Shown: positions 276 to 61,372 of the stretch, piece by piece
Layout: every line of letters begins with the position of its first letter
How positions within the stretch are numbered: the stretch's first letter is position 1
DNA from: Liolophura sinensis
Taxonomy: Eukaryota; Mollusca; Polyplacophora; Chitonida; Chitonidae
Length of the DNA stretch: 64,000 nt
Reading direction: 5' to 3'
Assembly: GCF_032854445.1 (NCBI RefSeq)
Contig: NC_088300.1
Span: 66,624,984 to 66,688,983, forward strand
Translations under genes and position numbers: made by a program
The notes under the pieces: model-generated
The model's input: only the letters and a program-made list of their open reading frames with translations
What the model was told of the DNA's origin: nothing
The model's database searches: none

Positions 276-3200
276 AGAAAATCACGAATTTAAGCCAGGT
301 TCCTGACAAACCTCCTGATCAACAACCCAGCCTTATCAAACAGATAGCTGGACGACTCTGCGATCACATTGGTCAACGGCCAATCGGATGCCACGAGAAA
401 AACGCTTAGTTGACAAAACCACCTAAGCGAAGTCCCTGTATATATTCAAATCTGTTGAGAAAATCATGATGGTAATGAATCGTTACCTTTTCAATGACCA
501 TCAAGGACACTACAAAACTGGTAACTTACACGGGTTTTATTAAAAATATTTGCTATACATGAATATAGATTACAACAAATTAGATCACAAAGCTTCATGC
601 TGAGGTCTTGTATCTTGAAATGGCTTATATTTTAGATATAATCAACATTTTTCATGATTAAGTAACTACACCCGTGCTTGACATCAAGCAGATATAAGAA
701 ACTCCGAGATCAGGAGAAAAAAATAGTTAATCTCATAAATGTGAATACTTTATTATTTGTCTAAGAGTATCACCCATGATCAGACACTGTCAAATACTCC
801 GCAAGCTCTTCAGAAAGGTCACTAACTCCCGTCTATGGTGCAAATATGGACGCCATAAGGAATATATAGAATACTAGATACGAAGGAAAGCCCATTCATA
901 CCATGCCCATTGTTCAGTGAAAATATACTAGACCCGCTCCCAACAAAACGGACTGAGCACAGCCTCCTTCGCCCAAAACACTTCCATTATGGACAGCTTG
1001 GAACCAAAACGACGCACGTTGTCCCGGGACAAGCTGAAATGCTGATACCATTAGGCCATCAAATCTCGCAGTAAATAATGAATAATTAAATTACAGTTAC
1101 CTAAATGATATACGAATACTTGTATTGCGCTCAGTAAAATCTGTAACTATACATGTATATTTTAAAAGTCTGGAGCGATAAATTACAACAACAGCCAAAG
1201 GTAAGTCTGAAAGTTTTGACAGATTTTTATGAGCTCGACACTTGTCATAGATTTTTTATTATGATAAAGCCAGCATTCTAATTTGAAAACAAAAATCTCA
1301 ACAAAAACCCTAACACACCAGCTTATCTCGGCAAGTTTGGAACAAAAACAATATCCTAAAATGCATGACTTACGTACAGCAAATATCGAACTGATAATTA
1401 TAGGTACCATACATCTGAATGGACCGCGCAAGTTACATAACAGCCAACCCTTTACAGCAGCACCAGTGCGGTTTCTCCACAATGAATGGTCTGTACTTTA
1501 GATGAGTTTTTCAGCTGATCACAATGTCACCGCCAACAGAAAGAAACAATTTCATCATAAGGAAACTCACGATTGGCGTACTTGAAAAGTTCTCGTTCCC
1601 GTATACTAATGCTTCATGGAATTAGTGCCAAATCTGTTCTTCATGGTTATCTAAAGAGTCATACCCTAGAACCTGAGACTAATATTAGTCCCAGCTAGAA
1701 CTAAGGACTCCTCTTATGAAGGGTTTACCCAGCCTTTTGACTGACAATTCTTCTGGGGTATACAGGTGATTTGCAAATGTGAAGCACTTTGAAGTATGAC
1801 AACTTGAAATATACATCATCACACTAGGTAGCTATAGGTATCAATAAAGTATTTTTCTCGATATACATACACACGCGGTTTAATGGTGGATGAATTGTAT
1901 CATTATATCACAAAGTCTACTGACAGTAATGTTGTTTAATGCCGGGCCACATTACCGAAGAGACTGGGTTAAAGCAGGTATACCTGAAACAGCAACCATG
2001 CCAATTATATCCGTTTTTTCTCGGCAATAACATCTAAGTTATAATACTATGAGGGAAATAATCCGAAAACTAGACACACATCTACTAAGCTCTGTGAACG
2101 GGTCTAATGACCTGTTCCTTTCATGAAAATAGAATCTTGTTTCTGTCTACACAGGTACATGTCAAAATAGGATTTAAAGTGGGAAAAACTCGATGTAAAA
2201 TCAGAGCTCACAAAGAACCGCTTTAAAGGGTGCAAACATGTTAAGAAATCAGTCATTCTTGTCTACTTAAAGTCTAAAATTGTACAAGAAAATGTCAAAT
2301 GTCAAAATGTTAATACTTTCAGAGCTGCCCTTAGCATGGATGTTAAGAAAATATGACCCTCGGTACGAACACTGATTAATATTAGTACTGACAAACATAA
2401 ATCACACATGAAAATTCTAATCCTGAAGTTGTTCTATGGAAAGAAATGACAGGACATCACAAAATTTTGAATTTAAAGATCAAATAACTGTGAACTACAT
2501 ATATGCTTGTATATAGGCTATTCAAATTTGTTTACCTGAAAACCTGTTGTGCATGTAGATATATTCTAGGTGAATTTCCCCCATTTGTCAACATGTAGTT
2601 TCTTAAGACATTTACTTTCAGGCATGTATGCTTCCAATATGTCTCAAGTAATGACAAAATGGTGTGTGACAAGGAATGAAATATTGCAAACAAAACACTT
2701 TCAAGACAAGCCACTTCAAAAATATAAAAACAAACAAAAACCACCAATGAATGCCTAAATTTTGGCATATAATACAAAGGGACAAGCAGGCTAAATTTCA
2801 CTTATGTGCATGAAACAATGTAAAGTGTGACAGTCAATAAATGCCCAATGGTCAGTCCAAGGCTTAGAAAAAAACATGTACTTATTCATAACTTTGTTAT
2901 TCAATCAGGTGATTCAAAGTTGTAATACCTCCAAACTGTATCAAAGCAATTAACAAGATGTTGGTCAAATGTTACAGCAACTGCTGTAGAACTAGTGGAG
3001 AGGTTAAGTTCGCCCACACCTACAGGATCAATTTATGTACACGGAGCACTATCTCTTATCAAAAGTCCAGAACTAAAAGTGTACAACTCTCATAAAGTAA
3101 ATATATTACCTGAAAGGTCATGGAAACCACATACCCTCATATAAGCTATATGATGATCTACCTCTAACAGAGAAATTCTTTACAAACAGTGTCCAAAAAA

Positions 3201-3386
3201 AACACTGATGCATGATGGGAAATTAATTGGCTTGATGAATTGGATCCTCAAACATATTCAACATTTTTAATATTCAAAACAAGTAACATTGTCATAATTT
3301 CTAACTGTGTGTTCGCACTTCACTGAATATAGCTATGAACACTTTAATTTAAGGTGTATTGTATAAAAACATTGTATTGTGTCCTA

Positions 3387-3599
3387 CACAAATTCCTCAA
3401 CCTTCACATATGATAGAGCAACTTCTAGTTGCAATTTATGCACATTTTTAATATGACTGGAGACAAAACTACATGGTTGGATTGGCCAGTTTCAGGGCTT
3501 CACGAAAAGTGCAATTTTATCAGTCAACACAGAAAAATGCATTCAGAATGTGCTTGAGTAAACACCTTGCAAACATGCGGAAAGGTTGGAGAATTACAG
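3387..3599. mobile_element. MITE family M1, copy 1
   Basis: About 213 bp flanked by TA on both sides (3385-3386 and 3600-3601). The ends are imperfect inverted repeats: the left reads AATTCCTCAACCTT and the complement of the right reads AATTCTCCAACCTTT. The interior contains AATTTATGCACATTTTTAAT and CCTTGCAAACATG, shared with the copies at 18249, 26714 and 57919. It has no coding capacity, consistent with a non-autonomous DNA transposon. Confidence 0.75.
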
Positions 3600-3945
3600 T
3601 ATTGTACTAACATGTAATTAACCAAGAGTTCAATGCTATTTGGCTAGCCTAGAGATGTACACTTTTTGTCCATGGTCCTCAGCATATTTATAAATCTATA
3701 TATACATGCATATGCCATCAAAACATAACAACACTTCAAAAGCTGCCATGATTTAGTACTTAACAATGATAACAACTGACAAACTCGCTTCAGTGCAATG
3801 CTGAATGATAAGTACATGTATTATATCTGTTAGAGGGAATGACATGATATCTGACACCTGATAAAAATAACGACCGAGGGCATGAACTATCACAGACGGA
3901 GAAATAAAATGTGGGACAATGGCTAAAAATGTTGTTGTTGTTATA

Positions 3946-6900
3946 TCACTGCAGGCAGCGAGGAATCACTGTAAAGGGGACAATAGGACTAGTTAGCTCA
4001 AGTTCCATCGCAGTCACCTGACACTGAGACGCCTCCTGGTGGTGACCTATTGACTGAAGGATTTGACCTAGACTGTACCTGCAAAGATCATACACAATAA
4101 TTTTATCAGGTCATCAAGATTTGTAAAGATTACACTTGATTAATTATTTCATTATGGTTTAATGCAATACTAGAGACTTTTGCTTTTATACAATGACAGT
4201 CCGTTTTTATTTATTTGTGATTGGTGCTTTATACCGTCCTCAAGAATATTTCAATAATTATGGTGGGAGGAATCTGGGCAGAGCCAAGGGAAACCCACGA
4301 CCATCCGCGGGTTACTGGGAGGCCTTCCCATGTACGGCCATAGAGCAGCAGTCAGTTTTGAAAGGAAACTGGAAAACTGGAATGCTTTGGGCTCAGTAAA
4401 CGCCATAATAGTTTAAGACATGGTCTTCAATAAACATTAGACTGCACGAACAGCCACACAAGTGTCACTGAGTGTTTATTGTTGTGAAGGCACCATGAAC
4501 AGTTAGGGCAAGACCATGTTTCAATCCAAGACTATGTTTCAATCTAGGACTATGTTTCAATCCAAGACTGTTTCAATCTAGGACTATGTTTCAATCCAAG
4601 ACTATGTTTCAATCCAGGACTATGTTTCAATCCAGGACTACGTTTCAATCCACACTTTGTGTATCCCAGTGAATGAAGGCAAAGTATTTAAACAACTCAA
4701 CCATGGCCAGCGTCTCAACTTATTTAAATTTCAAAGTCCAATTCAGTGATAAAATATGGGTAGGTATCTGAGCAGGTTTCTGCCTTTTCTGGCTTTTCTC
4801 CTCTGCCTATAAAACTAGCTGCCATCCAAATGAAAATAAATATTTCTGAATGAGATTTAAAACATCAATTAAATAATTTAATACATTAATAAAAGATCAG
4901 GTTAATTTCTGACAATTTTAAACTTTTTTCAGAGGCACTTTCATCCCAATAGTGATACTAAAAGTAAATATGAAATGCCAAAATGGTAAAAATAGACCAC
5001 TGAGATCCAAGCCTCCCGCTTAACCATAGCAGAAAAAGTGACATCGTTTGATCGACAGAATGCTGAACATCACCATCCCTAAATTCCCTCTTCAAACTGT
5101 TCCTGGTTGGAGTTGGGGGACAATTAATTGTAGATAGTTACCAGGAGAGATGTGAAGTGGGATCAGCATTGACAGCATCTCGTAGCACTTTCTCTGCCAA
5201 TCTGTCATTATTCATGTAATGTAGCACCAAACCCTGGCAAAAACGAAAGCAGCAAATCATTAATCATAATCACTAATACTACATGACCCAAATATTTCAA
5301 TGGAATTTAACTAAGTAATTAATATTCAGTTGACAGGTCAGGTGATGTCCCAAAATATTATTTTCGGTGCTGAAACTTAAAATTTCCCAGTAGAATATGA
5401 TCATCCCATGTTCCAAGTAAGCCTCAAAACACCTTTCTAAAATAAATAAAACTGTTAGAATCATGAAAAATGGGCAAGTTATGTGACAAAGTTTATGGTC
5501 ATTTAGGGTATATTGTTCCTGCTAATCATCCTAGAACTGTCTTAACTGACCTGTACTTGACAGAGACAAACATTTTCATATCCTGATGCGACCGATTTGA
5601 TCGATATTTCTTGTAACATACAAGAGGCTATCATACTTTATATACGGTATGTGGGTGGAGAAAATCTGGGCCAACCTAATGTAGGAGTCTTTTTCAATAC
5701 ATCTCACACATGTAACTTTAACATTGCACGCTAATGATGAAGATGAAAACCTCACCAAATGATGTCAACTTTTGGTGTTCATGCATGTCAATCCTGTTTA
5801 TATCAAGCAAGATATAATTGGTATTTGACATGGTAAATTTTCCAGCTATCCACACATTATTTAAAATATTGCAATGTTTAATATTTCCATGACAGTTTCA
5901 GTTTGTCGGTCACAAACACTTGGTGCCTGTCAAATGTTGTTTGGCGCAAGACAGCGTCCTTCTCCTGCAGCATATTTCCAAGCTTGCATGTAAGCATACT
6001 GTACTTACTCAGTCCTACAACACACAGTGTATTTACTTATTCATTTGATTGGTGTTTTACGCCGTACTCAAGAATATTTCACTTATACGACGGCGGCCAG
6101 CATTATGGTGGGAGGAAACCAGGCACACCTCAGAAGAAACTCACGACCATCCACAGGTTGCTGGAAGACCTTCCCACCTATGGCCAGAGAGGAAGCCAGC
6201 ATGGGCTGGACTTGAACTCACAGCGGCCGCACTGGTGAGAGGCTCCTGGGTCATTACGCCGCGCTAGCGCGATAACCAACTGAGCCATGGAGGCCCCCAC
6301 ACAGTGTAATATCAGCATTACAACGAGTAGGCTTCACTAATGGTGACTCACCAGATGATGTAAACTTTTAATGTGGCCTGGGTTGATTGACACGGCATTC
6401 TCGTAGTTAGACTTGGCCTCAGAGTAGTTCTGTTTGTATTCAAACACTCTGCCCTTCTGTGAAACAAACAATACATGTACATGAATAGTTTATATATTTG
6501 TCATAATGATCGGGGCTTCGTACCATACTCAAGAATATGTCACAAATATCACATCAGTCAGGTTTAGAAGAAAACAGCCAGGCTGGAGAAGTGTTTCAGC
6601 CTTAACCAGGTTTCTGACAATGCCTGACATGGTTCTGTAAGAGGTCAGGTGCTAATCTTAGATTGCAAGATGAATGCTCCATCTACATAAGCTAGTCAGG
6701 GCCCTATGGACATGAATCAGGGCTATGTGTAACAAAAAAATGTTTGATCTCAAACATTATGCGTGTGCATGAAGACCTTTTTATACAACGCACCTCAAAA
6801 TCATACTTTCTGAGAGCTTTTAGGTCTGTGGATGGAAGAAATTTTGTATGAAAACTTTACCTTTTTATTGGTATACCATCATATTTTGGTTTAACTCACT

Positions 6901-9900: not shown

Positions 9901-12900
9901 CAATGCCCAGACAAACGTCATGACTGACAGAAGAGAAGAAAGCTTGGCAGCCATTCTAGATTCATTTGGCTAATATGCAAAATGTATAAAATGTAGAAAG
10001 TTTTAAATTGTGAAAAAAAAAAACACTTATAAAGCTGTGCAGAGTGTGAGCAAAACCAGAATTGGTGGCAAAATTTGTGCAATGGAATCTTCGGCACAAT
10101 GTTTAGAATGATGTATCATATTCAAGTAATAAAATGATGAGTAGCGGTATCACAGCTTAAAACACAAAAACATCATTTGAAATTCTCTGTGAAAAAATTA
10201 ATGTTATTAACCCTAATTAGTACTTTTAAATAATCTAATAACAAAAGTTAAAGAGACTGAAATGAACAGTGAAAACAAACAAGAATTGTTTAATACTGGA
10301 CTGAATTGGATCTTGATTATAATAAGTATAAAAGATACACTCATGACATGACAATCACAAAACAGACAAAGAAACATGTATTTATTTGACCTTTAACAAA
10401 CTGCTGTTTATCATCAAAAAAAAAAGAAAGAGAGCTAAAAGTCGCGAACTTAAGTGGTAGCCACAGTGGATTACTGAGAGGTCAAACTACTTGTGATAGC
10501 CCCCACCCCCCACCCCTGTGAAAATGAGAAAAATGATGAAGTCAACTTTCACAATGTCATGGATAAAAGAGGAATGAGAAAGCTTGGGATATTGTGTGAA
10601 TAAATAAAACTTAAAAGCTGTCAAACCAAACACAATAAATTACAAAGGTTCCACGTCCCATACCATGCCATGTGATAAGGGGAGACAAACCATGCTGTCC
10701 TTATAGGATACAAACAAGATTTACCTGCTCTTGACTTCTCCCACAGTGCAGGTACTTCGAGTAAATTTCCTACACCGGAGTACACAAGCTATTTATCAAA
10801 AGTGTCTGGTAATGAATATTCAAAGAGTAGCGTTTAGCGTGTTTGTTGAAATCAAAAATCACATTTCACAATCATGCTGTTCAAATAATAATGCTGAGCC
10901 TCAGGAATGCATAATGCCCATCTACTGGAGATGTGAAATGAAGATTAGAAATATTGATCTCGAACTTGATCTTCAACATCTTTCTGCATGCTGCAATAGT
11001 GTACCCAATACAGTAATGTGATGAAACAGTTCTGCTCCAAATCACTGACTGATGTGTGTCTTTAACACTTCTACAACTATCAAACTCAGCAAGCACAAGT
11101 TTTGTGACAGAACTATTTTACAAGAGTATTTTTTTTACAAGAGGACATACACATACACAAATAGAAGAATAAAAAACAGGGGAACGTTAAGTTCAAACTC
11201 TTTTGTTGTTACAAGTAAAATCTGTCCTCCTCTTTTGGGGGGGGGGGGGGGGGGGGGGGAAATTAAACCTTTGTTGACATTAATTTATAGATCAAGTGCG
11301 TCATCATGTTCCAGAGGTACAAATGACACTTCAAGTTCACTAACATTCAGCTCCTTATCATTCATCTACTCAAAATTACTACTTGTGGAACTTTCTTCAG
11401 AGGACCATGTTACAGTAAATGTGAAAGGTTGCCTTATCTTGCCGACAGGTCACATGACACAGCAGGACTTTTTTACCTTTAGTGATAAAAGAGTTCAATC
11501 TCAAAACTCCCCTATTAAATGTTGTTCAAAGGTAACCATACCAGAGTCCCTTTCGCTGAGCTCTGACATTTGTAACTGAGCCACACTCCTCCTGTCAAAT
11601 GTTGCTCGGTCCATACGCACTGACTTCCTCTGAGACAAGGCACTGGCACAGGAGAACAGACCACAAAATCACAATTATTCCATGTTTTTTTTGTATTTAC
11701 TGGTTTGATAAGTGTGCATCAGTGTACTTAAGAAATTATTTCTTGTATGACGCGGTAAGATTTATGGCAGGAGGAAATCAGAGAGCACAGATGATTTATT
11801 TATTCATTTTATTGGCGTTGGCACCGTACTCAAGGATATTTCACTAATATCACGGTGACCAGCACTATGGTGTCAAGAAACTGGGCAAAAGAGCACAGGT
11901 GAAACCAGACCACTTAGTATTAACCAGGTTCTGTTTTACACCTAAAATCTGGTATGTAAAAATGCACTTTCCAAAGCACATAAAACTCTTTAATTCATAT
12001 TTCTGATACTCACACGTACAATTTTCAGGTAAGAAATTAAGCAATCTTCACAAAAAAGTGGCCATGTAAGGTGGAGGAATCAATCAAAATTAAGCAAAAT
12101 GTGTCATCTGAAAAATGCTTATCATTAGGTGAATTACAGCACCTGAGCAACACCCTGTTTAAGGGTAGACCTATCTGTTTTATGCAGAACAGCTCAATAG
12201 CTGGTTTAGGGCAAATCATTATCTATTTAGTAATAGACATTTAGTTTATGTAAGAAAGCCAAATGCATGTTGGAACATCATTATTTGCCAGCTGATGTAA
12301 AACTCACAATGACGTTCCACTCTTGAGCATGCCATAAACTGTACAATATAATTGTTGAATTCCACTATGTATCAAGCAATTTCTAAAATCTTCAAAGTGC
12401 AGGTATCAACAACTAAGGAGGGATGCACAGACATGAACGGAGACAGGGACCGACATCTTTGAGGCACCTGTGTTGAGCTATGCCCTGAGTGGGCTTGAAA
12501 CAAATTGTAATATTTCCGGCAGGTTTCCATACTCCTGACAGTACAAGTTTCTGTTACTACAATGTTTGGAAACACTATCACACTCCTTTACGTGAGGCTC
12601 TGTCCACGTTACTGGCATATGCCAACTGCTAGTTATACAGAATTTTCACATGGTGCAGAACAACAACTACAGGCACCAATGTAAAACTAAATGTTTTTCT
12701 GTGGATTTGGAACAAAAGTCAGCAGGATTAGTGGATAAATGTAAGACCATCTCTAGACTCACTCATCATCCTCGATCTCATGCAGCCCCTTCCACAGCTC
12801 TAACATCTGTTTACAGGTGATCAGCGCCTCCTCTGGGCCACAACACACTTCCTCTAGTTTACTCTTTGTCAGCAAGAGGCTGAGAAAAAAAGCATTAAAA

Positions 12901-15900
12901 TATAACACATTTGTTTTTCCTTAGTAATGCCGTGTAAATTTTATTAGTCACACAGTTACTAAGTGATAGGATACAGAAATATATGGCGTCACTTATCCTC
13001 ATATTGACACTCAGCCTAATGAGGACTACTGACACCATATATTTGCGTATCCTATCACTGAGTAACCATTACTTCAGCGATGTTCTTCAGAATAAGCCCT
13101 CAAACAAAGATGTATGTTAAGAGTAAATCATCGAGTAATAAGGGCAAAAAAATAAGAACAGAGAATGGTAGTTCTACAATTTAAATGGTTACATATTTTA
13201 AAACAAAGCAAAGACTGCTGAAAGATAGCAAAAAGACAATGTTTAAAACCTGAACCATCATCCACATTAGGCAACTGTTAAGCAATTGCTCACTTTTAAA
13301 AAGCATCCAGTGCTGACATGATCAGTTGGTGGACTCACTTGAGATGGTCAGTTAGTGGACTCATCTGAGGTGATCCGTTAGTGGACTCACCTGAGGTGAT
13401 CAGTTAGTGGACTCACCTGAAATGATCCGTTAGTGGACTCACCTGAGATGGTCCACTAGTGGACTCTCCTGAGATGGTCTGTAAGTGGACTCACCTGAGA
13501 TGGTCCTTTAGTGGACTCACCTGAGATGGTCCGTAAGTGGACTCACCTGAGATGATCTGTTAGTGTACTCACCTGAGGTTGTCAGGGTACTCATCCAGAG
13601 CAGCCAGTAACAGAGTCATGGCCTCCTGATGGTGTTTCTGGGCAGTCAGCAGTAATACTAACAGGTGTAATGACTGGATGTGATCACTCCTCAACTTCAG
13701 GGCCAGTTTCACAAACTTAATGGCATCAGGAATCTACACACACAAAAGCATGTATGGAAATCTTGCATATTTCAATTCCACATGTGTGGTTTCCTTCTTC
13801 ACATGTATTTTCTGTACTCATCTATATGATTCATGGTAATGCTGAGTAATCAAAACTGACCTCTGCAAAGATGTTATCACCTTAAGACCACATTTAACTC
13901 AAATAACGTATATGGATGATGGAAATTTGGGTGCCACTACCTGAAGTAAACCACTGCTGTCCATCAAGTACCTGATAAACCAGGCCTGTAGGCCACTCAA
14001 AGAAAAACACTTAAGTCACATGAGACAGCTTGATCCCAATACAACATTATAAATATATCTAGACATACATGAACACTGTGGATTGTATACTATAAAACAG
14101 CAAACAATTAGTCAGTTGAAAGTCATAATAAAAAAAACAATTTGAACAATTTACCTGTCGTAGGATCGCCAGCTGCATTGCCAAGTGGAACAGCACCAGG
14201 TAATCATTAGAGTCCTCAGAATAGGCCCTCAAAGAAAGATGCATGTGAAGAGTAAAATCATCAAGTAATGAGTGGAAAAAATTAAAAAATGAAAAAAAAA
14301 AAAAATGATTTTGTGTATCAAAGAATGATAATTCTACTATTAAGTATTTAAATGATTGCACATCTTCTGAAAAATTGAAAAGAGAATGTTAAAACTTGAC
14401 GTATCATCACCATTAGTTTGATATTCAAATAGTTTTAAGTAGAAAAGCAGCTGGGGCTCTTTTATCAAAAAAATTTTAATGTTTATTACAAGACTACCCA
14501 CGGAACAAAAATGTACTAAGTCATATCAATCTACAAGACAACTGTTAAGCATTTGCTCACTTGTAAAACGCATCCAGCGCTTTTTTCTGGTAAATTTGTC
14601 TCTCTCCCTGAAGTTTCATTTCCGTAGCTTTCATGCTGTACCCTATTCCCAAGGAGACAAAAGCTCGTGACAAGAGAGGGTGATGTTGATGGATATGTAT
14701 GGCTTTCTCTGAGAATCGGATTCCCTCTTCATACTGAAAAACAGGGGCAGCAGAATTCTGAATAAGAGTTCCACAAAGTTACTTCCCTTGTCACAGCATA
14801 AAAGAGCTGAACTCACCATCCAAATGATAGCTTAAATACCGTTGTTATAAACCAATAAGATGTCAAGAGGCTTTTAGGGTTTGCCCAATACAAAGAATCA
14901 CAACTTGAAAATGGACTGTCCTTAATTTTACCTTTTTAGGTCATTCACTTGTACGTAAAAAGTGTATTTTACCTGGAAGAGCTGTTCATAGCAAGCTTTG
15001 GCAGCTTGCAGAGGAACCACAGGGTTGTTTGGCTGAAGCTGGGTACAACTCTCTAAAACCTGCAGCGCTCGACTGTGCTAAAACATTACAATACACAATT
15101 GGTATACATTACATAAACTATCAATAACCATCTCAGACAAAAATTATAAATTAAACAATGATAAATCTATAATGTCTATTACATCAGAAGAAGTCAAAAC
15201 TTGTTTCCTTTGCCTGCTTTAGTTTCAAATTTGGTTTAGGTCAAATCTATATTTACATGTTCACTGCTGCCTCACTGGAATGACTTGCTAAAGAAATCAG
15301 ACCTATCACTGCCCCTCCTCCCCAGAACTCTCCACAGTGACACTGGGCTGACAACTTTTCATGGGAGACAATCTGATGACCTGATGATGTCCACAAATTA
15401 CTTAACTTTGATCTAGCAAACATTTTTAAGCAACAGACTAGAGAAAATAACTACCTACTGCGATACCTACCTTACCAGCACATACAAGAGCTAGTGCGAA
15501 CTGGTACCAGATGTGGAATTCATCAAAAGAAAATCTCATAGCTCTCTCAAATGACTGGAAAAACAAAAAAGTGAAAAAAATGCCAATACTGTAACATTGA
15601 TTTCCAGCATTTAATACACTTATGTAAATCATGCCAAGACAAAAACTGGGCCAAATCTCAAACAAAAACAACAACAAAGAAACAACTGGCCAGAATGAAG
15701 AGCAAGATTCCCGCATGGCATTCTAAAGTATATGTATATCATAATGGTGATCTACAATAACCTTGTAATGGTGTAATACCTGAAAAGTTTTCAAAGGAAA
15801 AAAATCGAAGTAGGGATCACTTAATAGATCACTTTTTTACATTCTTGTGAAGAGAGTTGAAGGCGTCCAAACATTTGAATTTCAACGCGAGCTTTATGAA

Positions 15901-37800: not shown

Positions 37801-40800
37801 AACTTGTTTTAGTGGCATTTAGAAGTTGGCACGGAAGTACTCTAAACAAGGCATTGGCAATGGATTACAACTTCTTGTTTTATTGTCACGACGTTTCGAT
37901 GTATATACTAGCATCATTATCAAGTGATTGATATTTGATAACAATGCTAGTATCTGCATCGAAACGTCGTGACAATAAACCAAGAAGTTGTAACCCATAA
38001 GCAATGCCTTGTCCAGTGTACATTTTAAACAATTTCAGTCCTGCTATTTGAGGTCTGGTTGAATTTGGGAACCCAAAATATTGCCTCTACTGTCTTCTCA
38101 GTTTACGTGTAAAACTTTACCGACTTTCATTAATGAACTTTTTACATCTTCTTTGGCTCGTGAATTAGGTCAGTTTATTTGGAGTTTATCCTGGACTGGA
38201 CACCTGCTTGAAAAATCATTTCAAGTTTGCCCAGAATTTATTACACTAGGTCACAGTCTAAATCATCTATGTGCTGGTCCATCGGGAAAGAAATACAATC
38301 TCTTTTCAAACATCTAAGAGAAGGCTTTAAGTTGTTCAGCCGATTTCACCTAACAGCCATTTAACTGTCCACAGACAGGATGCATTATGTGCACAGAAAG
38401 ATAATGCAGATCTTAGTTGTGGTAATAAGATGTATGCATGCATATTTTATGTAAAATACAGGTGGTGCTTAAGAGTAAGATGTCAACACACAGTCATTAC
38501 ACGGTTTACTGAGCATGTTATTTTGACATCATGTTGCATGTTGATACCTGTTACCAAGGTGATGCATTGCCAAGGATATGCGTGTGGTACTGCCAATGTG
38601 GCATATACCATGCATCCATTCGTACAAGTGATTTGTGTACATACGGAGAAATGCTCAGGAATAGCGACCAGTTTTCAGGGTTGACAAAGGTGTAGGTCTG
38701 AAGTTAAATTCTATGACACATTGCATTCCAAGACACATTCAGTGAAACTTTCTCTCTTGTTGATGGAAAAATTTTGCTCACTTGTGTGATGACCATGTGC
38801 ATTTTATGGTAAAATTATTACGCTCTTTGGTACAAATAAGTGATGACTTTTTGTTGTACAAGTGATTGCATCCTGGTGTACTAGGGAATACATTCTTGTG
38901 CTCAAAGGATGGCTTTCTGGTGCACAAGTGATGGCTTTTTGTTGCGCAAATGATTGCATTCTGGTGTAAAAAAAAAAATGTATTCCAGTGTACAGGGGAT
39001 TGCATTTTCATAAAAACCAAAGCATAATTGTTGGGTACTCTTGAGTATGGCGCAAGAAACCAATCAAATAAATAAATAATTGTTGGATAGTGTATAATAC
39101 TTCAAGAGTATTCTTTTTGTAAGGAAATTCACTGGCTCACTTCAGTGTAAGAAACCATCTTATATTGATTGATACATGTGGGTAGGCCCATTGTTGCATT
39201 GCAACTGTTTGGTATTAAGGTGGGTCAGCTGTCATACCTGATACAGCTATACATCCTGCTCACATTTGAACAAGCTCACCTGTCTAACTCACCTGTGTTT
39301 ATCAGTATGTACTGTTAATGTTTGTACAAAGTGTTAGTACAAAGAACTTGACCTATTCCCCCAAGGATCAAAAGTTTCTTTATGGACCAAATATCCCCGG
39401 CTTCAAAGGGCTAGACTTGGCTGTAGAGTGCACTGCATGCACACATTCCAGGTACAATGTACCTATGTCAAGGTCTAACTGGCATATCACAGCCCAGCCA
39501 TGTTGACATATTACAGATTTTCCCATTATATGGTTTACTCTAATATCATATTATTGACCAAAGTAAAAGATCTGATGTCGGCTGCCAGTGTTAATGATAT
39601 AGTATACTTGATAAAACTTTCTTTATATCACCTGTGGGATATGCGCATTCTTGTGTCTGGTGTAAAATGTGAATGGCTGGGAAGATAACACAACCTGTGA
39701 ACATGTATGTACATATGTACACATACTGACTGTACATGTACCTGTATGCTTCCAGGGCGTGTCTCTGTAGGTAAAATCTGCTAATGATATATACATGTGT
39801 GCAACTTTTTTGAAGAATCTGCTGTACAAACCACATCTCTTTAGCAGGCATGGGTGTTAAAGATCAAATTTTCTTGTGGCACAGCAAGGTTTTCTTGAGC
39901 CCTTTTCTTATTTCTTAATTTTTTTTTGTATCCAGGAGTCCCCTTTACAGAAACTTGACAGTTAAATTATTTAATGATCATAATTACAAGAAAAGTAGGG
40001 TTCTTTAACTTGCAGTAACTGTATTAAGTTATTGTCGATTCTGTTGATATTATTAAATCTTTTATTAACACATTTAGTGACTTCCTTCAGGTAGAGGGAA
40101 GGATTGATGAAGTTAGGTACAATGTTTGCATATTATGGGTGATGTATATGCGAATCATGCAATTATCTCTTGGATGTACCAGTATGTCGTACTTAAACTA
40201 TTTGGAACAGAAGAGCACTATGAAAAATCATTTAAAAACAGCAGTCTACATGTACAGATTTGAACCAGTGCAAATCTGAGTCTGTCTTCGTACTGCCTAG
40301 ATGTTTAATATTACTGCAGTGAGCTAGGGGTTCCCCTTACAAAGACCTCATTCCCACAGAAAACCAGCATACATGCTGCAGTGGTTAATTGTAGTCTTAC
40401 ATCTCTTCCTACTGGATATGTAATTACAGGGTCTGCATGGTCAAGGCGAAGCATATCTCAAAACATCAAGGGCTTGAGAGCGTAAAAATGATGTGAAATG
40501 TAGATAACACTTTGTTACAAAAAACAGTTTGCAGTTATATTTTTAGATTGTTCCGTGTGTAAGATTGACTGATGTGCACTTAGCTTTTTGAAGTTTTGCA
40601 TCACTCAGGCAGTTAAAATGGATCTGATAATAATTGTTTCACTGCGTAGCTTGTATTTAGCTTCATTCACGCAACTTCGACCATATAGCTGTGCATGCAA
40701 GTAATGACAAGGTGCCGGTCTATGTAGCTATAATATAATGCCCCTTCTTGTAATTACTGAACTGGTGTCCCAAGCCCTAGTGTGCACCATCTCTAATTTC

Positions 40801-52800: not shown

Positions 52801-55800
52801 TCAGAAGAGTGGAGATCATGACATAGGTGTTAAACTAGCCTTAATGAACACTGTCATCGGCTGGTTAATGTTGCAGACAAACTCAGTTAAGTAATCGCAG
52901 AAAGAGGAGGCAGCCAGAGGCATCAGCTTTGATTAGTGGTTATTCATATTGATTAGTGGTTATTCATATTGATTAGTGGTTATTCATATTGATTATTGAT
53001 AGGAATATGCTGCCTGCATGCAGGGTGTTATGGCGATAATGGATTGTTGTATCATTTAGAGATATAAATGTAAAATTGCGGGATGGAATGCCTTCCCTGG
53101 CATGTTCGCCTATAGAATTGTACTTGTTGCAGCAAGTTTGCCTCTTACCTCTGAAGATTCCAGTTTGCTACATGTAATTTAGCTGCCGCTTTGTCATGTA
53201 CTTGCCTTGAGAAAGTTAGATGGCTTATTGTGGGTTTCATGAAACAAATACATAAATAAAATTTGTATTTGACACATCTAACAATGCATTTGTTATTTAC
53301 AGAAATGTGCATCGTACTGACAACCCTACAGTTAGACTCTGCTTTATAGCGTATTTTGTTGAGGTGAATTATATAATTATGGTAAAACAGGCAATGCAAA
53401 CTGTTTTTGCACAATAAACTTGTGATGTTGCCTACAAAGCCATAAGTATTCATGCATTTGTATAGATGTCAATATGATATTATCGCATACAGCCAAAACC
53501 TCTAGTTTCTGTATATAGATGCCTCAGGCTAATAGATGAACATTTATCCTTTTCATGGTACATCCTCCCACAGTCAAAAAATGACATTCTCCTGTAATAT
53601 ACTGAAAAAATTACGTCAGTTGTTTTTGTTTTCATTTGTTCTTCAACATCAGTTGAGTCAAAATCAGAATTGAGATGTTATGTTGTTATAGATTTCTGGT
53701 AAGGGAAACAGAACCAAGAAAAAAGATAACTGTAAAGACAAACTTCTTTCAAGTAGAGTACTCGAGTAACCTATTGAAGTGTTTCCTAACATGTACATGT
53801 GCATTGGATGTACCACTGTTAATGTAAATGCATGTTACATTAATACATTAAATATATAAATGCAAGACTTTTCTTTATAACTGAAAATCTCACCCAACAA
53901 AGGACTCAAATATTTGTATGCAAATGATTCTTTTATACAAATGAGCAAGTACATGTATTAAAGAATCGTATATAATTATTTGACCTGCTAATCTATAAGT
54001 AACGTAGACCTTAAGCTTTGACAATATCACATTGTTCAGATTGGAAGAGAGGCTAATGTAAGGCCATCTAAAGGTATGTGTTTGCTTTGGCCTGATCTAA
54101 CTGAGTCACTCAGAAAATGTGTTTTGCGGGAGTTACAGTTTTTAAAAATTCATGCTGTAAGCTATTTTGCCATTCAGAAGAATAAAGTCAGAAAGAAAAG
54201 CTAGTTTTTTATGGCACCGTCCTAATTTTTTCAGAAATGGGTACCAGTTAGTCATCAACAAACCCACGCATTTTTTTTTTTCCATTGAAGTTGGCCTGAG
54301 ATATCTATTACTGTAGCTGTGCAGCCATTGTCCTGCCCAGATCTACTGCTTATTTACCCAGGCGTTCATGTCATATCCTGGGTGACAGGTGATCAACATA
54401 GCACCCACAGCTGGCCAGTCCCAGCCCACTGCCACTTGCTCATATGCCCCAGCCTGCAGCAAGCCTTATAACAACAAACCACAGTACAAACATCAAACTG
54501 GAGGTGACCATGAAGATTTACCATGCCCCTAACTAAGCTGACAGTTGTTGTTTTTGAAGGAAGTGATATCTGTAAAGCCTGTGCTGAGCTGTGGTGATTA
54601 GTCATTTTCTGCCTCCCCATAAGGTGGTTTTGGCACTTTAGGTCAGTTTAGCTAAATGATGTTGACTGAAGATTTACATGCATATACAGTCCTTTCCGTC
54701 TTCACAGAATTGCCATATTTTCATACTGTACAAGTGCACATCTGACTTCCACAAAACTATTTGAACAACTTTTCTCTTAAATTGTGACATTCTATGATAA
54801 GATACATGCATATGGATACATGTGACCTAAACAAGGTAATTTTTGATCATATTATACAAGTAAAAAAACTTTAAAATAGAAATATTCTGTATTCTGTATG
54901 TTGTAATGATATCTTACCATGTGGTTGGAACTTTTTTTTTCAAATTGACAGCAGTGGTAGGTATAGTAGTGTTTGGGGTTGTGTTATCAACACCTGGATA
55001 ACAGCTGCTGAGGGTCTGTGCTTGAATGTACTGTCATACATGTATGTAAAGTTGTATACACTGTGATCAATGCTCACAGCATGAAAATAGGCCAACACAT
55101 TGGAAGGAGTTTTAACTTTTAAGAAAATATTAAGGAGAATGTGTATTGCCCTAAAACTACTTGTGAACGACCTAACGATGGCCTTAACTACATGTGAATG
55201 ACCTAACAATAGCCTTAAACTACATGTGAATGACCTAACAATAGCTTTAAACTACATGTGAATGACCTAACAATGCATTTTTATAGGAAAATGAATGTCT
55301 TAAAATCTTACTTTTAGTGATGAAACTTCAACTTTTCCAGTTGAATATCATCATACTTCCTAACTTCAGTACTTTTTTTGATCAATAGAACTTTGCTCTG
55401 GATGGCTCTGCCCAGTTTCCTCCCACTAGCTGGCTGCCTTCAAGTAAAATATTCTTGAGTATGGTGTGAAACAGCAATCAAATAAATAATACTCTGAATG
55501 AGATTATGGCTTGTTGTTATTCCTACACAATTCCTCAGTTACATGTAACAGACTTATATCCATATAACTGCATGTATATGTACATGTATAAATAAGACGT
55601 TTGTTCTGAACATTAGAGCTGTCTTCATTGAGTTGTAGGCGATGCCACATAACATTTTGAAAAGTCCCACGCTGCCCACAGTGTATCATTATGTTACAAG
55701 GCAATTATCTGATCACCGGAATGCATTTATCTGACCATTGCAATACAAAGTCCATTTTAAAGCATGCATAGACTTGTCAGAAGCAATATTACATTGTAGG

Positions 55801-61253: not shown

Positions 61254-61372
61254 TCAATCCAAGCACCAGACAATCCATGCACCAGACAGCCCATGCACCA
61301 GACAATCCAAGCATCGGACAATCCAATCACCAGACAATCCATGCACCAGACAATGCATGCACCAGACAATCG
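61254..61372. repeat. Tandem repeat, unit 16-17 bp, about 7 copies
   Basis: Variants of AATCCATGCACCAGAC recur, with single-base changes such as AAGCACC, AAGCATCGG and AATCACC. Confidence 0.9.

Follow-up and report, generated by a model that had tools for sequence, protein, structure and literature searches.

The window, a 64,000-nucleotide stretch of Liolophura sinensis DNA (contig NC_088300.1), carries on its minus strand part of a TTC7 gene, in which exons 13 and 14 are separated by an intron of 693 nt whose 5' end is occupied by a tandem array of 26-bp units (Table 1). The translation of exon 13, IPDAIK...EYPDNL followed by the AG of a split codon, matches human TTC7B chains with a best E-value of 1.7e-11; the alignment extends as far as the Leu that precedes the junction codon, its final aligned residue being 577, 583 or 603 in three TTC7B chains. 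On the minus strand the exon terminates as AAC CTC AG|GTGAGT, and exon 14, which begins at 12879 after CTCAG|, completes the junction codon as AG|C (Ser), keeping the frame. Translation past this first donor (donor 1) ends at once in a stop (DNLR*), so that an earlier note's statement that any downstream donor would lead to the same immediate premature stop holds. The exon number agrees with the list of mapped exons if the frame at about 17842-17735 is taken, as judged by eye, to be exon 7. A search of the assembly (632 contigs) found no second copy of either exons 13-14 or the array outside the window, by a type of DNA search that can miss repeats.

Table 1. Features of the TTC7 exon 13-14 region, in window coordinates, and domains of the exons recognised at other donor arrays of the genome.
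Feature	Position	Strand	Details
TTC7 exon 13	13573..13733	(-)	ends ...EYPDNL + AG
Genuine 5' splice site CAG|GTGAGT	13567..13575	(-)	junction 13573/13572, in unit 1
Intron 13	12880..13572	(-)	
Exon 14	12763..12879	(-)	acceptor CTCAG|C; putative 3' end, from donor-like TGA|GTGAGT
Tandem array	13316..13575	(-)	ten 26-bp units, consensus CAGGTGAGTCCACTAACGGATCATCT
Six exact CAG|GTGAGT copies	13385..13549	(-)	first bases 13549, 13523, 13497, 13445, 13419, 13393 (units 2, 3, 4, 6, 7, 8)
CAA|GTGAGT	13333..13341	(-)	unit 10
Degraded copy of part of exon 11 (its tail), intron 11 and the exon 12 start	13084..13314	(-)	blastn and local alignment
Source of that copy (exon 11 end, intron 11, exon 12 start)	14213..14581	(-)	
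Pfam exon at donor array L014			Fe_hyd_lg_C
Pfam exon at donor array L026			beta-lactamase; below cut-off
Pfam exon at donor array L028			PHD
Pfam exon at donor array L037			EML; below cut-off
Pfam exon at donor array L042			GH31
Pfam exon at donor array L047			MH2
Pfam exon at donor array L051			RIC1
Pfam exon at donor array L055			TPT
Pfam exon at donor array L057			BTK; no PDB support

Tandem Repeats Finder delimits the array at 13313-13577, with a period of 26, 10.2 copies and 86% matches. In sense order, seven of the ten units (1, 2, 3, 4, 6, 7 and 8) carry an unaltered donor word, CAGGTGAGT, and variant forms stand in units 5 (CAGGAGAGT), 9 (CAGATGAGT) and 10 (CAAGTGAGT); AG|GT is accordingly present in units 1-4 and 6-8 and altered in units 5, 9 and 10. 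Outside the array, CAGGTGAGT occurs at a single place within the 64 kb (39295). This list of units, together with the TTC7B match of exon 13, confirms the proposal of the earlier note that the genuine donor lies in the first unit and is repeated into the intron, and yields the same count of six further exact CAG|GTGAGT units and one with CAA|GTGAGT. Starting at a genuine exon end and bearing the donor word in most of its units, the array has the layout of a splice-donor minisatellite of the IFI6/6-16 kind, although, unlike that of IFI6, its 26-bp unit and immediate TGA do not keep the reading frame, a trait that may not define the kind. The acceptor of intron 13 lies outside the array, and the 693 nt of the intron are not a multiple of 26. 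The resemblance of the TTC7 exon tail to the unit is modest, 39 of 2000 random 23-mers joined to CAG scoring equally well. Other minisatellites are found in the window at 4509-4652, 38838-38966, 52929-52995, 55150-55274 and 61255-61371; the first is inside TTC7 without overlapping the mapped exon stretches, and the other four lie beyond the mapped part of the gene.

Donor 1 is probably the one used in the normal mRNA, because the conserved protein needs it, it adjoins the body of the exon, and it combines the only A at position +7 of the ten units with a computed U1 duplex (-13.6 kcal/mol) stronger than that of the six exact copies (-12.2 kcal/mol). Masking of the copied donors by hairpins was considered and rejected as an account of donor choice, since the computed cost of opening donor 1 (5.55 kcal/mol) falls between the lowest and highest values for the six exact copies (4.86-6.49 kcal/mol); folds of 29-nt windows at the ten donors range from -2.7 to -14.3 kcal/mol, with unit 6 the strongest. 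The AG|GT of units 1-4 and 6-8 also invites a different scheme, in which CAG|GTGAGT units act as both 3' and 5' splice sites, so that the intron is removed stepwise and donor 1 is rebuilt each time. Neighbouring units are, however, 26 nt apart, below the usual length of a spliceable intron, and are not preceded by a long pyrimidine tract. Despite the enrichment of AGGT dual-specific sites in human tandem-repeat genes, as described by Duan et al. 2024 (PMC10809524), we consider such a ratchet quite unlikely.

The array is not the only duplication in intron 13. At its end begins a degraded partial copy of the exon 11-12 region (13314-13084), which blastn aligns collinearly to its source (14581-14213) in three blocks that are 89%, 77% and 84% identical; the local alignment scores 166.8, whereas 100 shuffles reach 74.6 at most, and the copy spans repeat families D2, D3 and D4. 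The simplest reading is that more than one duplication hit this stretch and that the array may have grown at or beside a breakpoint. Further into the intron, an inverted repeat at 12955-13066 (48-nt arms, 85% complementary and 16 nt apart) resembles a small MITE, and a frame in locus L100 looks similar to it by eye.

Tandem repeats can be misassembled. That the array is an artefact is nevertheless barely credible, given that its units differ from one another and that the Liolophura japonica genome paper (PMC11068029) reports a HiFi-based assembly whose mean read, at 8,347 bp, exceeds the 260-bp array many times over; RNA-seq was produced in the same study.

Arrays of the same make-up occur elsewhere in the genome. 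Three occurrences of CAGGTGAGT at short spacing give 242 overlapping matches genome-wide, against 7 for the reversed pattern, and three of the second donor word, CAGGTAAGT, give 110 against 59; the same-dinucleotide words CAGTGGAGT and CAGTGAGGT give 54 (reversed, 77) and 129 (reversed, 74), and the acceptor word TTTTNCAGG gives 123 (reversed, 84). At least 29 distinct CAGGTGAGT arrays were counted by eye among the 100 matches listed. Normalisation by single-word counts covered CAGGTGAGT, CAGTGAGGT, CAGTGGAGT and their reversed forms, not CAGGTAAGT, and gives triple matches per single word of 0.024 (242/10097), 0.018 (129/7125) and 0.012 (54/4438), respectively, with 0.0026 (7/2731), 0.021 (74/3571) and 0.020 (77/3888) for the reversed forms. 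The idea that the donor word is a repeat hot spot was dropped, there being no clear excess over word abundance after normalisation; as the normalised counts are not exceptional, minisatellites are common in this genome, and donor words seem to take part in them roughly in proportion to their abundance. Among the single-word matches listed, some of those to CAGGTGAGT form clusters with periods, such as 82 and 88 bp, that exceed the spacing searched, so that donor arrays may be undercounted.

A single rule, common to the two edges and to donor and control arrays, defined the candidate exons. A reference point was set 40 nt into the array, and of the open frames of 25 aa or more whose end fell no further than 60 nt from it the longest was taken; this one frame per edge, cut at 75 aa, was compared with Pfam at an E-value of 0.01. 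From 28 fetched CAGGTGAGT loci, 19 were searched, the others having the array near the locus edge (5), no 25-aa frame (2) or being near copies (2; L017 and L032). For CAGGTAAGT, 21 arrays were present among the matches listed, of which 19 were fetched and 16 searched, 3 having no frame; for CAGTGAGGT, 21 arrays were present among the matches listed and 2 were left out. The control set comprised 28 loci, which supplied testable frames for the search at 18 upstream edges and 24 antisense edges. Among the matches listed for the acceptor word there were 41 arrays; once 4 arrays from a single family and 6 belonging to two dispersed repeats had been dropped, 31 were fetched and 29 searched at the downstream edge by the mirrored rule, the remaining 2 having no frame.

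A Pfam-recognisable exon runs into the array at 9 of the 35 donor-word arrays (4/19 for CAGGTGAGT and 5/16 for CAGGTAAGT); seven of these exons are above the Pfam cut-off and two, those of L026 and L037, are below it. The corresponding figure is 0/18 for the upstream edges of the control arrays, 1/24 for their antisense edges and 0/29 for the downstream edges of acceptor-word arrays. The one antisense case, L078, proves to be a donor array on the other strand, in which an Ig exon with the end ...CACAG|GTTAGT is followed by copies of CAG|GTCAGT. By Fisher's test, 9/35 differs from the 1/42 of all control edges with p 0.004, from the upstream control edges alone (0/18) with p 0.02, and from the acceptor arrays (0/29) with p 0.003, the last comparison being indicative only because the acceptor word has a high T content and a lower specificity, with only 1.5x as many array matches as its reversed control. 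The TTC7 exon itself, taken as a positive control, gave only weak TPR matches below the cut-off, and the method thus misses real exons. Outside the count of nine, L048 matches GTPBP6 in the PDB (E 2.1e-11), and PDB searches with the upstream frames of L025, L027, L031 and L057 returned nothing at E 0.001; the first three of these may be GPCR-, SLC5- and ABCC-like, respectively, labels that are unproven and do not enter the counts.

As at TTC7, the arrays at other genes run from the exon into the intron. In seven of ten arrays compared (L014, L028, L042, L051 and L057, with Pfam exons, and L027 and L031, whose exons are unconfirmed), 16-35 nt of the exon tail recur in the copy that precedes donor 2; in the other three (L037, L047 and L055) the recurring stretch is just 3-7 nt. 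The GH31 (L042) and RIC1 (L051) arrays have GTATGT as their first donor and GTAAGT in the copies; if the first donor is the one used, complementarity to U1 alone would not be decisive there. In the L042 array (737-1493), the 39-bp unit is open in frame in its first copies, on account of which use of a later donor could insert 13-residue repeats. In the L014 array (772-4547), Tandem Repeats Finder gives 94.5 copies of a 40-bp donor-bearing unit over 3.8 kb; the adjoining exon matches the iron-hydrogenase large subunit family, and the gene may be CIAO3/NARFL.

For TTC7, 27 donor arrays and 16 controls, variation among units was compared between the donor word and the remaining columns of the unit, the arrays whose consensus lacks the word (L015, L044, L050, L057, L061, L062 and L064) or that have few copies (L029 and L039) being absent from this test. 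Before the removal of CpG columns, variation in TTC7 was 3/81 in the donor word versus 18/153 in the rest of the unit, and the pooled values for eight confirmed-exon arrays were 0.057 versus 0.100; 21 other donor arrays gave 0.090 versus 0.099, and the 16 controls 0.090 versus 0.090. After their removal, the donor word was less variable than the rest of the unit in 7/9 confirmed arrays (TTC7 and eight with a Pfam-recognised exon), 13/19 other donor arrays and 8/16 controls, with median variation ratios of 0.67, 0.77 and 0.99, respectively; comparison with the controls gives p 0.08 for the confirmed arrays and p 0.15 for the other donor arrays, and a rotation-rank version that includes the CpG columns gives p 0.10. 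Selection keeping the copied donors, suggestive at first, is thus not significant once CpG columns are removed; because the direction towards lower variation persists, there may be weak constraint on them.

These results bear on the suggestion of the earlier note that the copies are a U1 decoy, a splicing buffer or an on/off switch, whereby use of the downstream donors would send TTC7 mRNA to nonsense-mediated decay and so tune its expression. Such a role would fit the immediate in-frame stop behind every downstream donor, the computed U1 duplexes of the six exact copies (-12.2 kcal/mol), the trend of copied donors towards lower variation, and the precedent of IFI6, where donors in repeat units can be used (PMC4526556). 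It is nonetheless unsupported and, in our judgement, very unlikely: the copied donors are not significantly better conserved after removal of CpG columns, the strongest computed U1 duplex belongs to donor 1, whose opening cost is no different in range from those of its copies, and donor-spanning minisatellites like this one recur across unrelated genes. U1 is also known to protect transcripts from premature polyadenylation (telescripting), and six extra exact U1-complementary sites just inside intron 13 could in principle serve as a platform that binds U1 snRNP without splicing, either blocking such polyadenylation or aiding recognition of exon 13. With an intron of just 693 nt, however, protection would seem little needed, and the lack of significant excess conservation of the copies again speaks against it; we hold this platform to be highly improbable.

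The recurrence of the pattern at unrelated exons points instead to a tolerated minisatellite of a known kind, which is likelier than a functional role. A segment with the last bases of exon 13, the donor and the first bases of intron 13 would have been duplicated in tandem and, as an ordinary minisatellite, have spread into the intron, the array probably being tolerated as long as the first donor is used; the same process has probably acted at other genes of the chiton genome. Tolerance would follow from two features. The true exon end is upstream of all the extra copies, so that with splicing from the exon-proximal donor of unit 1 the remaining units would be removed with the intron; and, given the AG|GT layout, stray joining of donor 1 to the AG in a later unit is predicted to recreate an identical donor.

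By itself the TTC7 array is a curiosity. The set to which it belongs offers natural experiments on 5' splice site choice, in which position and exon context can be set against U1 strength, and suggests a route by which introns could lengthen at their 5' end; it is the recurrence and the contrast between donors and acceptors that merit further attention. A broader proposition, which we regard as doubtful, is that exon-intron junctions are a recurrent source of minisatellites in the chiton genome, at donors and not at acceptors, with the spliceosome taking the most upstream donor. If this were true, ordinary exons would be followed by a few to dozens of near-identical 5' splice sites, the most upstream of which would be reliably taken even in genes whose copies seem better suited to U1, as in GH31 and RIC1, and the arrays would survive and lengthen introns because their AG|GT units make stray in-array splicing self-healing. 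The recurrence, the asymmetry and the partial duplication of exons 11-12 beside the array appear to be new; among the open-licence papers listed, none was found to describe donor-spanning minisatellites as a set across a mollusc genome.

Several known systems resemble parts of this arrangement. The closest is the minisatellite at the splice donor of IFI6 (6-16), reportedly described by Turri et al. in 1995. It shares with TTC7 a position at the exon end and repeat units that bear donor sites, and has a unit of 12 bp that is in frame. According to PMC4526556, two downstream repeat units of IFI6 serve as donors and give rise to isoforms; the 26-bp unit of TTC7, by comparison, would lead to a stop. 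A regulated switch by nonsense-mediated decay is alike in that an alternative donor gives a premature stop. Internal tandem repeats with minisatellite units of about 30 bp at exon-intron boundaries are also described for human segmental-duplication genes (PMC2812944); those vary between paralogues, whereas the assembly search detected one copy of the TTC7 gene. Minisatellites near alternative splicing in C. elegans (PMC4039745) and tandem splice sites (PMC2423196) are further related cases. The dual-specific AGGT sites of Duan et al. 2024, exemplified by UBC and VCX3A, likewise lie within a repeat unit, and those authors suggest that expansion of the repeat is less harmful as it can be spliced out (PMC10809524); both intron ends fall within the repeat in the UBC kind, but only the donor end does so in TTC7. 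Finally, the system of Ma et al. has in common with TTC7 a short tandem duplication of an AGGT-bearing segment, with the difference that in TTC7 no new intron has arisen and an existing one is lengthened at its 5' end.
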